Shown one piece after another: positions 20,169 to 26,653 of a stretch of 64,000 nt of DNA. Source of the DNA: Bizionia paragorgiae (GTDB lineage: Bacteria; Bacteroidota; Bacteroidia; Flavobacteriales; Flavobacteriaceae); the NCBI RefSeq assembly GCF_900107625.1, contig NZ_FNQK01000001.1, positions 1 through 64,000 on the forward strand, in the 5' to 3' direction. Position numbers and translations under genes: made by a program. Below the pieces are notes generated by a model that was given only the letters and a program-made list of their open reading frames with translations, did no database searches and was not told the DNA's origin. The stretch's first letter is position 1. Each line of letters begins with the position of its first letter.

Positions 20169-22595
20169 TTAAAATTTAACTTGCAACGTGGCATAATAAT
20201 TTCTAGGTGAAGACGGAATTATTCCAGGCCCAGGGTAGCCTGTAGCTCGTCTTGTAAAGTAGGCATTATCTAATACATTATTGATTCCTGTTTCTAATTT
20301 AAAACGCTTATAACTGTAAGATAATGACAAGTCTAGAATATCATAACTCGGAATTTCTCCAACAATACCGCTGATTCCTGAGGAAACTGAATTCGAAGCA
20401 TCTGTAAATTGTTCTGACAAATAGGAATACTGAACGTTAGCTAAAAGATTTTTATAACCGAACTTCACTCCGGTTTTAATATTCACCTCAGGAACAAACT
20501 CCACCTTATTTCCTTTAATACCTACTTCTTCTGAAGCGGTATATTCTGAATTCACAAATGATGAGTTTATAAAGTAATTAAATTTAAAATCATTTGTTAA
20601 TCCGACAATTTTCTTCAAATTAAAGTCAAATAAAGACTCTATTCCATACATTCTAGCATCTCCAATATTCCCTCTTTCGTTTATGGTTCTATTAGTCGAT
20701 TCCTTTTTGGTAAGTACACCGATTCTTCCGTTATAAAACAATCCGAAAACACCAACATCATAAGATACCATGCTATTTATAGCGCCACGAACTCCAACAT
20801 CGGCAGTATATCCTTCTTCGTCTGTAATGTTTTCATTAATTCTAAAAGTAGGGTTCACAATATTAATATCTGAAAAGGTTACCGATCTGTAGTTCTGAGA
20901 GAGATTTCCATACACTTCTAGTGCTGAATTTGGTTTATAACTCCCCCCAATACCAAATAGCACAAAGGAGCGCTCAAAGTCTTGATTATCGCTAAGAGTT
21001 TCTTCAAAAATAACATTCCCAGCACCATCAAAATTTATGTTTTTATAAAAGCCATCACTTTGTGTTCTAATATACTCGAAACGAAAACCAGGTGTTATAG
21101 ACAGCTTATCGTTTATATACACTATGTTTTCACCGAAAACGGACATATTAAAATTTGGTAACTCAAATTGCGATTGGTTATTATAACCAGAAAATTGATC
21201 GTTATAAAAATTAAAATCTGCTCCATAACCATCACTACCAGCTCCCTGTTGTTGTGCGTTATCGGCCTTATACAATTTAGCACCTATTAAAAAAGTAGCG
21301 TCTTTATCTAGCAGATGATATTTACTTAGCAAACGCGTTTCGAATCCGTAATTTTTAAAATCTCCTTTTATCAAATCGCGTTCTTTTAACGGATCGGCTT
21401 GATCCACACGGTTACTTCTATAACCCAATGCATCTCTAGAAGCGTTCAATCCGAAAAAATTAAAAGTAAAATTGGTTTGATCAGAAAATTTATGTGCAAA
21501 CTTTAGATTGTATAGTAACCAATCGACCTGAAACCAGTTACGTTCTCTATTGCTTTGATACGGATCGTTATAAAACATATTGTCCGACAAGCCTCCACCT
21601 TGCTGGGCTAAGTATCTCATATAAGTTAGCTCGCCGGTTAAGGATGTATTATCATTAAATTGATATCCTACATGGGCAAAAACATTTTTAGATTCAAATT
21701 CAGAATTCGCTCTAAATCCGTCGCCTTTTTTATAATTAAAGTAACTGTAATAGCTCAGTTTATTTTTGGTACCACTTACGCTCGTAAAGTTGGTGTATAA
21801 ACCGTAACTCCCCACCGTATTTCTTGTAATAAGTTCGAAGGGTTTGTTAGGGTTTGGCGCTTTCATTTTAAAGTTAATTAATCCTCCAAATTGGGTTCCG
21901 TACTGCAAGGAAGCTGCACCACGAATCACTTGAATCTCTTTAATGCCTTCACTTGCCGGTGTGTAATAGCTTTCTGGATAGCCTAAAACATCGGCACTAA
22001 TATCATACCCGCTTTGTCGTGTATTAAAATTGGCAGTACGATTAGGATCTAATCCGCGACCTCCAATATTTAATTGCAATCCCGCATCGTCATTCTGATA
22101 AATATTTAAGCCCACCACCTGACTGTAAATCTGTCTTGCGTTGTTACTTGCCAAATTGGCCATGGACTGCTCGACCAAAATCACTTCTGTTTTTTTACCG
22201 GCATAGATTGCTGTTTCTTCGATGTCTTTTAACCGACTTATTTCAAAAACCTTTTCTTTTCTAGAAGCAATTTGAACTTCAGAAAGAGTGACCCCCAAAG
22301 GTTTTAATCGCACATTTACTTGCTCATCTTTCTGTATAAAAAGCAAGTGTTCTACAACTTCAAACTCATAAGAAAAGAAGACAAGTTGCAGCTCTTTTTT
22401 ATCCGTTTGAAACTCGTAAAAACCAGAAGCATCACTTTCTGCCAGCAAGCCTGTGGTTTTATTATAGATCTGCACATCGGCAATCCCCTCTCCGGTATCG
22501 GCATGGCTTATCACTCCTGAAATAGTCTGTTGTGCTAAGGCATAACTACTAATTAATGCAACTACAATTACTAATTTAAAGTCCTTTAATCTCAT
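20169..22595 (-). CDS. TonB-dependent outer-membrane receptor
   Basis: A signal peptide (to about residue 22, ALAQ) is followed by a carboxypeptidase-D-regulatory-like domain (about 23-105, starting TISGVISHADTGEGI), a plug domain (about 130-250, with IQVIRGAASLQYGTQFGGLINF), and a 22-strand barrel ending with the Phe-type C-terminus (LQVKF). It resembles siderophore or ferric-citrate receptors of the FecA type. It overlaps the upstream HTTM gene by 20 bases and is the last gene of a locus with an imelysin-like lipoprotein, which suggests iron or iron-chelate uptake. The ligand is inferred. Confidence 0.9.
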   Translation of the reverse strand: MRLKDFKLVIVVALISSYALAQQTISGVISHADTGEGIADVQIYNKTTGLLAESDASGFYEFQTDKKELQLVFFSYEFEVVEHLLFIQKDEQVNVRLKPLGVTLSEVQIASRKEKVFEISRLKDIEETAIYAGKKTEVILVEQSMANLASNNARQIYSQVVGLNIYQNDDAGLQLNIGGRGLDPNRTANFNTRQSGYDISADVLGYPESYYTPASEGIKEIQVIRGAASLQYGTQFGGLINFKMKAPNPNKPFELITRNTVGSYGLYTNFTSVSGTKNKLSYYSYFNYKKGDGFRANSEFESKNVFAHVGYQFNDNTSLTGELTYMRYLAQQGGGLSDNMFYNDPYQSNRERNWFQVDWLLYNLKFAHKFSDQTNFTFNFFGLNASRDALGYRSNRVDQADPLKERDLIKGDFKNYGFETRLLSKYHLLDKDATFLIGAKLYKADNAQQQGAGSDGYGADFNFYNDQFSGYNNQSQFELPNFNMSVFGENIVYINDKLSITPGFRFEYIRTQSDGFYKNINFDGAGNVIFEETLSDNQDFERSFVLFGIGGSYKPNSALEVYGNLSQNYRSVTFSDINIVNPTFRINENITDEEGYTADVGVRGAINSMVSYDVGVFGLFYNGRIGVLTKKESTNRTINERGNIGDARMYGIESLFDFNLKKIVGLTNDFKFNYFINSSFVNSEYTASEEVGIKGNKVEFVPEVNIKTGVKFGYKNLLANVQYSYLSEQFTDASNSVSSGISGIVGEIPSYDILDLSLSYSYKRFKLETGINNVLDNAYFTRRATGYPGPGIIPSSPRNYYATLQVKF

Positions 22596-23943
22596 CGTTA
22601 AATGGTAAAATCCACGTTTTAGGTTTAAATGATTCTTGTTCTTGATATAAATCGACAGTTTTATCTATAAACGGCTGACTTCGTCTACCGTTTAGGGCTA
22701 CATAACTCTCTGCGAATACCTGTATATTCTTATGGCCTTGAGCCGCAAAATGATCGCCTAAGAAGTGTGCATACTCCAGAATAAAATCGGGTTGCGTACT
22801 CATTTCTTTCTCTTGAAAAACGGTCAGGAAATCTGAATTATTAACTATAAATGCCTCTCCACTCACCTTATCGACAATCTTGAATGTGGTATAACCCATT
22901 TTTTCCATTAGCATTACGCGCCACGAAAACCGATACCCTTCTTCTGTCCAAAATAACTCGCCTGGATACACAACATATCGAAAGGGCAAAAGTAATTGAA
23001 AAGCAAAAAATAAAGTCAATATTGCGGCACTAAAACGTTGAAATTTTGGAATCATAGGATGTGAAGTCACTTCTATGGGTTTAAAAACCCCCATAGCCTT
23101 TAAAAGTCGTTTTAGAATCGCGATAATTTTAAGGTGAAGCCCTGCATCGAAAAATATAAGCGTTGAGACTATCATAATAAAAGGAAACATTCCGATAGGA
23201 AATAAAACCCGAGTAAACACATGAAAAACCACCACTAAAAGAAAAGCGAAACCACGTGTTTTTCTGTAAAGTAGCAAAAAGGGAATACACAAATCGTATA
23301 ACATACCACTCCAGCTCATTGCAAAATGAAACCACTCTTCTTGCATAATATGTGTTCCTAAAATTGGCATATCGTATTTTGAAGGCAGCCATATTTTTAA
23401 CGGCATGGCTTTAAACAACCAATCGGAATTTATTTTAGCCAAACCCGCATAGAAATAAACCATGGCTAATAATAGTTTCACACTATCGATTGTCCATTTT
23501 GGAACCGATTGAAATGCTATTTTCCTCGTATATGCATCTACCGAGAAAAAGGCATTAGCTGGTAGAAAAATCATTACAAAGCTTAATACACTAATAAAGT
23601 AGTAATGGTTTAAATACGTGGTTTTATCCATTAACTCGATATAGGTAAAACTTAAAAAGAAAACAACAATTGCGAATCTGTATTTATAGCCTATAGCTAC
23701 AAACAGTGCAGATAGTCCAGCGACACTAAAAAGAAGATTTGTGTAAATACCTAGGGGTTGAATCCACTCGAATCCATAATAAGAGAAGTGAAATTTAGGC
23801 TCAATGTACAGCGTGTTTATCCACCCATGATACCAAAATCGTACAATGCTATACAACATCATTATACCAAATAGCATTCTAAATACAGCCAAAGGAGCTG
23901 CGTTAGTTTGGGATTTAAAGTATGTTTTTAATTTTGCTGTCAT
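22576..23943 (-). CDS. HTTM-domain membrane protein (vitamin K carboxylase-like)
   Basis: A 455-residue polytopic protein of the HTTM family, which shares its membrane domain with vitamin K-dependent gamma-carboxylase. Several hydrophobic helices are present between residues 15 and 320, starting with AVFRMLFGIMMLYSIVRFW. The family block FWTEEGYRFSWRVMLMEK lies near residues 325-342, followed by a soluble C-terminal domain. ATG 23943 is chosen; the upstream ATG at 23982 runs into the terminator hairpin. Bacterial HTTM activity is largely unknown. Its place between an imelysin-like protein and a TonB receptor suggests a role in iron handling. Confidence 0.82.
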   Translation of the reverse strand: MTAKLKTYFKSQTNAAPLAVFRMLFGIMMLYSIVRFWYHGWINTLYIEPKFHFSYYGFEWIQPLGIYTNLLFSVAGLSALFVAIGYKYRFAIVVFFLSFTYIELMDKTTYLNHYYFISVLSFVMIFLPANAFFSVDAYTRKIAFQSVPKWTIDSVKLLLAMVYFYAGLAKINSDWLFKAMPLKIWLPSKYDMPILGTHIMQEEWFHFAMSWSGMLYDLCIPFLLLYRKTRGFAFLLVVVFHVFTRVLFPIGMFPFIMIVSTLIFFDAGLHLKIIAILKRLLKAMGVFKPIEVTSHPMIPKFQRFSAAILTLFFAFQLLLPFRYVVYPGELFWTEEGYRFSWRVMLMEKMGYTTFKIVDKVSGEAFIVNNSDFLTVFQEKEMSTQPDFILEYAHFLGDHFAAQGHKNIQVFAESYVALNGRRSQPFIDKTVDLYQEQESFKPKTWILPFNDEIKGL

Positions 23944-23957
23944 CAGAAAAAATTTGC

Positions 23958-23995
23958 ATAAAAAAAGATTCTCCAAAACCAATTAGAGAATCTTT
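23958..23995 (-). terminator. Hairpin terminator or attenuator between imelysin and HTTM genes
   Basis: AAAGATTCTC (23964-23973) pairs with GAGAATCTTT (23986-23995); on the minus strand a seven-T run follows. It lies after the imelysin-like stop and ends about 15 bases before the HTTM ATG, so it may set a lower level of HTTM and receptor transcription. Confidence 0.75.
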
Positions 23996-24017: not shown

Positions 24018-25139
24018 TTAATCGCCATCATTATCAACATAACCTTGGTCCAATTGAATCTGAAATGCTTGAAGCATATCTACTTTTAATAAAACCACAC
24101 CTATTTGCAGGGCATCGTAAACAAGTGTCATTTTACTATTATCATTTTGTATTTGCTGATTAAAATTAGGATTAAGCACTTGAATACCATTTTGAGCTTG
24201 ACCAAATTGGGTTAATACAGATGATGAGATATCCGATTTATTTAAATATTCTAAATAGGCCTTTAAACTCGGTCCGGTAGTCGTCGAATTATAAGCATTC
24301 CCAATAAAAAAGGCTTCAACGGCAGCCAGGGCCTCGGTAGCCAATTCTTTAGAATACACTTTAGAGTAGTAACCTTCTACCTTTTCTGGAAGTGGGTTAT
24401 TAGAAAACACACCTGCAGGGATTCCGAATTTTGCCGATCGCAAACCACGTTCGTAATAGTTTACAAAATCATTAACCGTTTCGTTTACCGCACTTGTTTG
24501 TGAGTTTCCTGAACGATTTACATAATCTGCACGGTAGCCAGAATTCCAACTTGCTACCACTGTTTCGGTTAACATTTTCATTTTATTAACCACATCAGAT
24601 AAGTATGTCGTATAATTACTTGCATTTACACTCGTCGAATATATAGCAACAATATCAGCATCTGTAGTCGCTACTCCAAATAATAAATAATCTAAAGCAG
24701 GGAATCCTACCGCTGCATTATTACCACTATTACCTAAATCGTAAGATCCATTTGAAATATTACTTTCGATTAAGATTATATTTGTAGGATAGATATTCAT
24801 TTGTTTGTAATACCCTATTTCATCGGCTTTACCAACATTAAACATTTCCGCATACTGCCAAACTTTATAAGCTGATAACCAAGCTGTTCTAAGCCCTTCT
24901 AAATTAGCTTGATTTGGTGTGCTTACAAAAGCATCTTTTGCTTGCACCAAGGCTTCTAATTCTGAATTAACATCATCTAATACAGGCATGATAATAGCAT
25001 CCGCCCAATACACCAACATGGCCTGTCTATCAAAATTATCTGAAGTACCACTAGGAGCATCTGGAGAATCACTATCTGAAGAACTACACGACACTATGAT
25101 TAATGCTAACACTACAATTGAAATAACTTTTTTAATCAT
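24018..25139 (-). CDS. Imelysin-like (peptidase M75 family) lipoprotein
   Basis: The lipoprotein signal ends at IIVSC (Cys 18), followed by a helical imelysin domain. Imelysins and EfeO-like proteins are iron-linked, with a conserved GxHxxE motif ahead of a LLFG/LLWG segment. Here the equivalent is GFPALDYLLFG (about residues 144-154), so both His and Glu are missing. The second half has the usual helix with VNDFVNYYERGLRSAKFGIP and GPSLKAYLEYL. It is probably an iron-uptake accessory on the periplasmic side of a membrane. Its own -7-like TATCTTTG on the minus strand is at 25169-25176. Confidence 0.88.
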   Translation of the reverse strand: MIKKVISIVVLALIIVSCSSSDSDSPDAPSGTSDNFDRQAMLVYWADAIIMPVLDDVNSELEALVQAKDAFVSTPNQANLEGLRTAWLSAYKVWQYAEMFNVGKADEIGYYKQMNIYPTNIILIESNISNGSYDLGNSGNNAAVGFPALDYLLFGVATTDADIVAIYSTSVNASNYTTYLSDVVNKMKMLTETVVASWNSGYRADYVNRSGNSQTSAVNETVNDFVNYYERGLRSAKFGIPAGVFSNNPLPEKVEGYYSKVYSKELATEALAAVEAFFIGNAYNSTTTGPSLKAYLEYLNKSDISSSVLTQFGQAQNGIQVLNPNFNQQIQNDNSKMTLVYDALQIGVVLLKVDMLQAFQIQLDQGYVDNDGD

Positions 25140-25285: not shown

Positions 25286-26497
25286 TTATAATGCTTGTTG
25301 TACAGAGAAGCCAAAACGTGTTGCAATAGATTCTGACATTGTATTTAAGGTTTCAGGAGTGACGTCCCAAAAACCGTTACCATTTAATAACTGGTTACTA
25401 AAATCTTCCACTTCACTATCTAATACATAAGGAGCATCGGTATTTGGCTCTCTTGTAAATTGTAAACTATACATAAATCCAAACCCTTCAGATAATTGGT
25501 GGAAAGTTTTTGCCATATCTCCTGCTGCTAATGCATTTTTACCACCTTGTAAATAATGTACTGCGCGAACTGCAATCACTTTAGAGATATTTGCTCTTAA
25601 AATGGCAACTTGCTCATCTCTTAAGTCATAATCGTTAGCAATAATAGCGGCACGACCTAAAGTAAAGGCGTTAAAAACAGTAGTTGCAATTCCGGCGAAA
25701 TCACCATCCTCATCTACTTTCCCTAAGTAATTGTTTAAGAACGCATCTCCTGATAAGGTTGGAAATGCAGGGTTTGCTTCGGCACCATAAAGATATCCAA
25801 AAGCCTCATCCCATTTGTGCTCCATAGTGGTATATGATTTTCCATCTTCTAAAACTTTATTGGTATTATTAGTTCTATTATCACCTGCATCTAAAACCGC
25901 AATACTTAAATAGTTATTTAAAATTTGATCGGCCATTAAACCACCAATCAATCCTTTGGCTACGGCTTGATTTAGTTCTAATCCTTTAGCATTTACATAA
26001 CGGATTGCTCCGCCGCCAGCTTCTTGCTTAAAACCTGCTGTTCCTGCAGTCGCTTCTACACTCCAATTAGGGAATACTGTAGTTGCCTGTTCAGAAATCC
26101 AAGAATCAAAATCTGCTTTTATCGCATTAGAACCTGTTGTATTTGCTGCAAAAAAATCGTTAGAAGCAGCCACTTTACTACGTATATTTTTTCCTGAAGC
26201 ATTTAATTCGGCATCCGAAAAATCTGCTTCACCTTCCACATGCGCAAACATATTGTTTAATTCTGTTTCGGTAGTAGTGTTTATTTTTAAGGCAGTAACT
26301 AACTCGGTAGCCATAGCTATACGCGTTGTTTGTCCGCCAAAGCTCACCGTAGATTCTCCATCACGTGTAAACTCGTAAGAGGTTGGTTGTTCTATACCAG
26401 GCTCTTGTGGTATTGATAATGCAACATCATTATCACTACTACAAGCGTTAAATGCCATTGCTGTTACTACTGTTAATCCTAAAACTACTCGTTTCAT
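25286..26497 (-). CDS. DUF4856 lipoprotein
   Basis: The lipoprotein signal ends at MAFNACSSDN (Cys 19). The remaining roughly 380 residues match the DUF4856 pattern that is common in Bacteroidota beside imelysins: an early YEFTRDGESTVSFGGQTTRIAM block, KWDEAFGYLYG near residue 230 and a C-terminal LSEGFGFMYSLQF segment. The domain is helical and imelysin-like in spacing. It is the first gene of the locus, behind a strong promoter with two flanking palindromic boxes. A role in iron uptake is inferred from neighbours; the biochemical role is unknown. Confidence 0.88.
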   Translation of the reverse strand: MKRVVLGLTVVTAMAFNACSSDNDVALSIPQEPGIEQPTSYEFTRDGESTVSFGGQTTRIAMATELVTALKINTTTETELNNMFAHVEGEADFSDAELNASGKNIRSKVAASNDFFAANTTGSNAIKADFDSWISEQATTVFPNWSVEATAGTAGFKQEAGGGAIRYVNAKGLELNQAVAKGLIGGLMADQILNNYLSIAVLDAGDNRTNNTNKVLEDGKSYTTMEHKWDEAFGYLYGAEANPAFPTLSGDAFLNNYLGKVDEDGDFAGIATTVFNAFTLGRAAIIANDYDLRDEQVAILRANISKVIAVRAVHYLQGGKNALAAGDMAKTFHQLSEGFGFMYSLQFTREPNTDAPYVLDSEVEDFSNQLLNGNGFWDVTPETLNTMSESIATRFGFSVQQAL

Positions 26498-26507
26498 TTT
26501 TACTCTT

Positions 26508-26530
26508 TTTATTTAGACTTATTATAAATA
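26508..26530. promoter_or_regulatory. Palindromic box 1 (candidate iron-responsive operator)
   Basis: TTTATTTAGACTTATTATAAATA, shown here as positions 26508-26530, contains a 19-bp imperfect dyad (ATTTAGA...TATAAAT, seven of nine pairs). It lies in the leader between the -7 element and the DUF4856 ATG. It matches box 2 at 22 of 23 positions. The dyad length is like DtxR/Fur-type operators; the regulator is not in this window. Confidence 0.6.
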
Positions 26531-26547
26531 ATATTGTTTTGAGTCCA

Positions 26548-26578
26548 CAAAAGTAAAATGCATACACGTACTACGCAA
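26548..26578 (-). promoter_or_regulatory. Promoter of the DUF4856-imelysin locus
   Basis: On the minus strand TTG (26576-26578) and TACTTTTG (26548-26555) are 20 bases apart, a full match to the Bacteroidota consensus, 50 bases upstream of the ATG and flanked by the two 23-bp boxes. Confidence 0.8.
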
Positions 26579-26579
26579 G

Positions 26580-26602
26580 TTTATTTAGACTTATTTTAAA
26601 TA
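26580..26602. promoter_or_regulatory. Palindromic box 2 (candidate iron-responsive operator)
   Basis: This is a second copy of the 23-bp box, differing from box 1 by one base (T for A at the fifteenth position after the TT). It abuts the upstream side of the -33 TTG. Binding at both copies would occlude or loop the promoter. Confidence 0.6.
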
Positions 26603-26653
26603 GATTATTAAAAAAAATAAAGGATAGCTCCTCTTATACTAATTTACAGTGAC

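Follow-up and report, generated by a model that had tools for sequence, protein, structure and literature searches.

Predicted Fur-type twin boxes flanking the promoter of a conserved DUF4856-imelysin-HTTM-TonB receptor operon in Bizionia paragorgiae

Introduction

Among the literature found, few experiments underlie our picture of iron control in the Flavobacteriia, and the closest described system is that of Riemerella anatipestifer. In that study, the results section gives the Fur box as ATTTAGAATTATTCTAAAT, the abstract gives a different putative box, GATAATGATAATCATTATC, and binding of Fur is reported by EMSA on four promoters, none of which belongs to the operon considered here (PMC5609570). 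The abstract version of the box is repeated in another paper (PMC7976709). The 17 Fur-regulated genes of R. anatipestifer include RAYM_09779-09794, which encode a TonB receptor, a vitamin K gamma-carboxylase, an imelysin and a hypothetical protein; they are upregulated without iron and, less strongly, in a fur mutant grown with iron (PMC5609570). The iron response of this operon was 2.70-3.07 in the fur mutant compared with 2.11-3.07 in the wild type, and another iron-dependent input must therefore exist. The box table of the study gives no box for this operon (PMC5609570).

A second line of evidence comes from Bizionia argentinensis, where deletion of mliR, encoding a MerR-like iron-linked activator, lowers both the cell iron content and the expression of an imelysin gene, and also that of a siderophore receptor, cytochrome c, mrp and a FeoB-associated protein (PMC9478572). 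The literature searched, which lacks most subscription papers, contained the motif strings only in PMC5609570, as was also the case for any two of DUF4856, imelysin, gamma-carboxylase and Bacteroidota, and no comparative study was found in it.

Results and Discussion

Twin boxes and the promoter between them

The window, i.e., the whole stretch of 64,000 nucleotides analysed from B. paragorgiae contig NZ_FNQK01000001.1, contains two predicted boxes and a promoter on its minus strand:

26581..26603, minus strand: upstream Fur-type box (predicted); the coding strand 26603-26581 reads CTATTTAAAATAAGTCTAAATAA; conserved in orthologues
26576..26578, minus strand: -33 element TTG; position conserved in orthologues
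26548..26555, minus strand: -7 element TACTTTTG (TAnnTTTG), the flavobacterial sigma-A consensus (PMC9723704)
26543 (about), minus strand: purely inferred transcription start, placed by the rule that TAnnTTTG occupies -12 to -5 (PMC9723704)
26509..26531, minus strand: downstream Fur-type box (predicted); the coding strand 26531-26509 reads TTATTTATAATAAGTCTAAATAA; conserved in orthologues

The original prediction described the boxes as the 23-mers 26508-26530 and 26580-26602; these coordinates and the identity at 22 of 23 positions were verified, and the register shared by the orthologues lies one base later. It had also placed a consensus promoter between the boxes, one box in the leader and the other next to the -33 TTG. 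This arrangement was recovered in full: the promoter is of the Bacteroidota type, with 20 bp between TTG and TACTTTTG, and its -7 element agrees with the TAnnTTTG that Flavobacterium psychrophilum promoters carry at -12 to -5 (PMC9723704). Relative to the inferred start, the upstream box spans approximately -60 to -38 and leaves a gap of 2 bp to the TTG, and the downstream box spans approximately +13 to +35, within the leader and 11 bp 5' of the ATG.

Across the window, this pair is the sole close repeat with at least 22 of 23 matching positions within 200 bp, and none of 50 first-order Markov randomisations gave such a repeat. Both boxes lie within one mismatch of the 19-bp dyad ATTTAGA-N5-TCTAAAT. 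The 19-bp dyad originally assigned to each box is present, but it is imperfect, with 14 of 19 positions self-complementary in each. By itself the dyad is unremarkable, since 169 of the 63,982 19-mers of the window score as high, and this frequency is one point in favour of a reading of the boxes as a chance repeat in AT-rich DNA, devoid of function. The absence of a comparable pair from the randomised sequences speaks against that reading, and the significance of the boxes lies in the repeat pair and its conservation.

Conservation of the pair upstream of DUF4856 genes

The protein encoded by the DUF4856 gene downstream of the boxes was matched in 30 out of 99 genomes, that of B. paragorgiae included. 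Within two mismatches of the 19-mer, at least two upstream sites were found at 15 of these 30 loci, one at eight and none at seven; two of the seven (L025 and L041) were read at the wrong place, with contig ends nearby, and several distant matches in this set begin late in the query. A broader set comprised the best 80 of 333 orthologous loci, some of which are probably from the same genomes as the 30 loci; the closest of these 80 belong to Bizionia, with 89% and 83% identity.

All of the best 80 of 333 loci possess a box in the upstream region, which argues against the chance repeat. At a threshold of at least 16 of 22 informative positions, a box was found in 80/80 regions and at least two in 75/80, with 156 sites in total as against 54 in the reversed sequence and 7.55 in mononucleotide shuffles. 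At the stricter threshold of at least 18 of 22, the same best 80 of 333 loci retained a box in 80/80 cases and at least two in 41/80, with 121 sites against 4 (reversed) and 0.3 (shuffles). One locus, L038 (genome G003), has three box-like sites before DUF4856, at -190, -97 and -36, instead of two.

The promoter-flanking geometry is conserved as well. A pair of boxes 55-76 bp apart with TAnnTTTG between them occurs at 68 of the best 80 of 333 loci, and at 59 of these 68 paired loci 25 bp separate the end of the upstream box from the -7 element; the position of the downstream box is more variable. At the thresholds used, no pair flanking TAnnTTTG was found at the other 12 of the 80 loci, one of which (L140) is cut by a contig end. 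Of the best 80 of 333 loci, 75 have at least two boxes, and at 35 of these 75 a distance of 72 or 73 bp separates the last two; the spacing falls into clusters of 58-64, 67 and 70-74 bp. Helical phasing across the 68 promoters reached a vector strength of 0.55 at 10.5 bp per turn, a value to be read with the relatedness of the loci and the polymerase site between the boxes in mind.

Gene content of the proposed operon

The boxes precede four genes on the minus strand, which we propose to form an operon:

25286..26497, minus strand: DUF4856 lipoprotein-like gene, first of the proposed operon (PF16148, E 3.7e-145)
24018..25139, minus strand: imelysin (Peptidase_M75) lipoprotein-like gene (PF09375, E 4.5e-31)
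22576..23982, minus strand: gene for an HTTM protein with a vitamin K-dependent gamma-carboxylase lumenal domain (PF05090, PF22777); the start is TTG as listed and the true start is uncertain
20169..22595, minus strand: TonB-dependent receptor gene, last of the proposed operon (PF00593, E 7.7e-27)

At 77 of the best 80 of 333 orthologous loci, DUF4856 is followed downstream by matches to each of imelysin, HTTM and the TonB receptor. The iron link originally proposed for these genes is supported by R. anatipestifer, where an operon of the same order is listed as Fur- and iron-regulated (PMC5609570); its RAYM_09794 would be the DUF4856 orthologue.

Two features of the encoded proteins may be added. 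Against the NCBIfam model 'FEA1-related lipoprotein', the DUF4856 protein scores weakly, with 32 bits where the cut-off is 250 (E 4.3e-8); we take the FEA1 family to be iron-assimilation proteins of algae, and the match would be a hint of such a link. The protein combining HTTM with the gamma-carboxylase lumenal domain sits within the iron-linked operon.

Distribution of the motif among and within genomes

With up to one mismatch allowed, the strict palindrome TTATTTANATTNAATNTAAATAA had 94 forward matches in 99 genomes, that of B. paragorgiae included; these fall in 56 of the genomes, and the backwards pattern had 3. The matches often lie near TonB receptors and AraC regulators. We read 65 of the 94 places, omitting DUF4856 sites already in the ortholog set and unlisted ones; three DUF4856 sites (L080, L084 and L103) are still among the 65. 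Pfam analysis of 70 neighbour proteins, given as raw counts without a matched background, yielded 16 TonB receptor plug domains, eight AraC-type helix-turn-helix domains and seven Porin_O_P domains, followed by imelysin (four), DUF4856 (three), FeoB (three) and DUF6686 (three). Several of the 65 places adjoin genes with no clear iron link (for example Tex, IMP dehydrogenase and an oxidoreductase), and at eight (L075, L077, L079, L082, L086, L091, L110 and L114) no gene of at least 60 aa directed away from the site was found within 350 bp.

The B. paragorgiae genome itself has no match to the strict TTATTTANATTNAATNTAAATAA at up to one mismatch, because its own boxes have other centre letters. 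Searched with the 23-mer at up to one mismatch, it contains ten places, two of them the boxes of the window. Six adjoin nqrA, a TonB receptor, a multihaem cytochrome c, sdhC, feoB and AraC/hemA, the last with a ferrochelatase-like gene further on; the remaining two lack an iron link, and one of these two lies inside a gene. Another site in this genome precedes mrp. Other iron genes of this genome with the motif are thus feoB, AraC/hemA, sdhC, nqrA, a cytochrome c, mrp and a TonB receptor.

In B. paragorgiae (C36:36547; L055 1501-1523) and in a second genome (G022:C11:56137; L222 1501-1523), nqrA and a T9SS plug-domain gene have a box between them, the plug-domain call being from Pfam for the former and by eye for the neighbour in the latter. 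The retention of this box in two genera suggests iron control of Na+-NQR or of the secretion-linked gene.

Looser patterns gave a different picture. The loose pattern first put forward had no excess in the B. paragorgiae genome at up to three mismatches (65 forward and 91 reverse matches, the reversed control giving 78 and 83), nor did the 19-bp dyad at up to two mismatches genome-wide (89 against 108 in the reversed control), and the 23-mer at up to three mismatches showed a mild excess (358 against 242). Such unenriched or mildly enriched counts are evidence against a large simple regulon. The unenriched counts are also what a chance repeat would produce, but the 94 strict matches against 3 in the control are not, and together with the conserved pair they make a functionless repeat extremely unlikely.

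Fur and DtxR as candidate regulators

Four FUR-family matches and one DtxR-family match were found in the B. paragorgiae genome. The best FUR match (97.6 bits; G000:C29:130079-130438) resembles solved Fur structures and, judged by eye, adjoins a purA-like gene; fur adjoins purA likewise in F. psychrophilum (PMC9331221). Two extra FUR-family genes (L022 and L023, contig C30), about 3 kb apart and by eye near metal-efflux-like genes, are probably regulators for another metal.

Among the 99 genomes, the strict motif occurs in 54 of the 92 that have a FUR match. Of the seven that have none, two carry it, one being a genome of 0.6 Mb and the other 83% complete; for the DtxR family, the corresponding tallies are 51/82 and 5/17. 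Taken alone, the latter comparison would point to DtxR, but co-occurrence cannot itself separate the two families because the motif is commoner with either, and kinship and small genomes confound both. A genome with boxes in which neither Fur nor DtxR was detected (G096) is 83% complete and was set aside for that reason.

More informative is G022, a 99%-complete genome that has a single FUR match and, at E 0.001, lacks any DtxR match. Its DUF4856 gene has a pair of boxes 48 bp apart, and further boxes occur by an nqrA and a feoA-like gene. The looser-pattern search, which covered six of the 17 DtxR-less genomes including G022, found five sites in G022 against none in the control; four of the five were read, the fifth being C28:46253. 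The other five DtxR-less genomes together gave 53 matches against 37 in the control. Since the DtxR-less G022 keeps the boxes, Fur is favoured over DtxR on the strength of this one genome.

A repressor of the DtxR/MntR type acting on the boxes in place of Fur is nevertheless to be weighed. The single DtxR-family gene of B. paragorgiae lies near feoB and is divergent from a TonB receptor gene, with a weak box-like sequence, TTTTAGACTAGTCTAAATAA, between the two; the tally of 51/82 leans the same way, and the iron response retained by the Riemerella fur mutant would be compatible with such a repressor (PMC5609570). Against this, boxes persist at three iron-linked places in G022, the best NCBIfam match of the DtxR-family protein itself is the MntR model (145 bits, cut-off 350) rather than DtxR (79 bits), and the half-site spacing of the boxes is unlike that of the DtxR consensus. 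We consider a DtxR/MntR-type repressor unlikely. The element TTTTAGACTAGTCTAAATAA (L019 1684-1781, contig C33) is a half-matching box with different spacing.

MliR and the promoter spacer

Operators of the MerR family typically occupy the spacer that separates the -33 from the -7 element. MliR, as a member of this family, could read the boxes or work through them, and a 109-aa protein of B. paragorgiae was taken as MliR by its length and family. The genes lowered by mliR deletion in B. argentinensis resemble those that bear boxes here (the imelysin operon, TonB receptors, cytochrome c, mrp and feoB), and, if the imelysin gene is the one described here, that result is the opposite of simple Fur repression. 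The boxes, however, lie outside the -33/-7 spacer, which shows little conservation among 67 aligned promoters (from the best 80 of 333 loci); moreover, the study leaves direct as opposed to indirect action open (PMC9478572). An MliR-like protein was found in 94 of the 99 genomes, which makes its co-occurrence with the motif uninformative. Overall, action of MliR at the boxes appears very unlikely.

Proposed mechanism

We regard it as probable that the two boxes are a Fur operator pair through which metal-loaded Fur would repress the operon promoter, with release on iron shortage. Motif identity, the conservation of the pair and the sites at other iron genes favour, as judged from sequence, the initial proposal that a Fur- or DtxR-sized operator pair precedes an iron-linked operon. 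Counting against the Fur reading are the divergent box GATAATGATAATCATTATC in the abstract of PMC5609570, the iron response kept by the operon in the Riemerella fur mutant and the absence of this operon from the box table of that study. Computed here are the sequence, the promoter position, the conservation, the iron-linked context and the identity with the Fur box proposed for a relative. The naming of Fur as the regulator draws on the literature on that relative and on the one DtxR-less genome.

With sufficient iron, metal-loaded Fur would occupy both boxes. Fur at the upstream box would adjoin the -33 element and Fur at the downstream box would sit on the first transcribed bases, and together they would prevent RNA polymerase from either engaging the promoter or leaving it. 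Iron shortage would release Fur and allow expression of the DUF4856-imelysin-HTTM-TonB receptor operon. Fur action in this organism, repression as its outcome, the exact start and any cooperation between the boxes are what we infer.

An elaboration of this scheme treats the twin boxes as one device, in which Fur dimers would bridge or clamp the polymerase and a second iron-dependent factor would read or assist at the same boxes. Such a second factor would explain the iron response kept in the Riemerella fur mutant; as a whole, we hold this elaboration to be rather improbable.

Under the preferred reading as a Fur operator pair, the locus would be an iron switch of an ordinary, known kind and well conserved. 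What is mildly new is the conserved arrangement of twin boxes flanking the promoter, and the sites at iron-using genes add modestly to it. Its value is one of annotation rather than surprise. It places the Riemerella Fur box within a motif spread over many flavobacterial genomes, it extends the candidate Fur targets beyond uptake genes to iron-using enzymes (nqrA, sdhC, hemA, mrp and cytochrome c), and its arrangement of boxes around the promoter is open to testing with a single reporter.

Comparison with known operators

The operators of DtxR/IdeR and MntR are of similar size, serve metal-dependent repressors and carry TTAG in the half-site, as do the boxes described here, but their consensus and half-site spacing differ from those of the window boxes. 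The 7-1-7 operators of the Fur family (E. coli Fur, B. subtilis PerR and Fur) have the half-sites TGATAAT or TTATAAT. They are likewise AT-rich, odd-centred inverted repeats of about 19 bp that overlap promoters, whereas the half-site of the window boxes is TTTAGATT. The sites of the relatives fit the 23-bp TTATTTANATTNAATNTAAATAA better than ATTTAGAATTATTCTAAAT, and the window boxes differ from TTATTTANATTNAATNTAAATAA at the centre. For R. anatipestifer, the box table lists no box pair flanking the promoter of this operon, yet its Fur box ATTTAGAATTATTCTAAAT contains the same 19-bp dyad as the window boxes and its operon has the same gene order as that of the window (PMC5609570).
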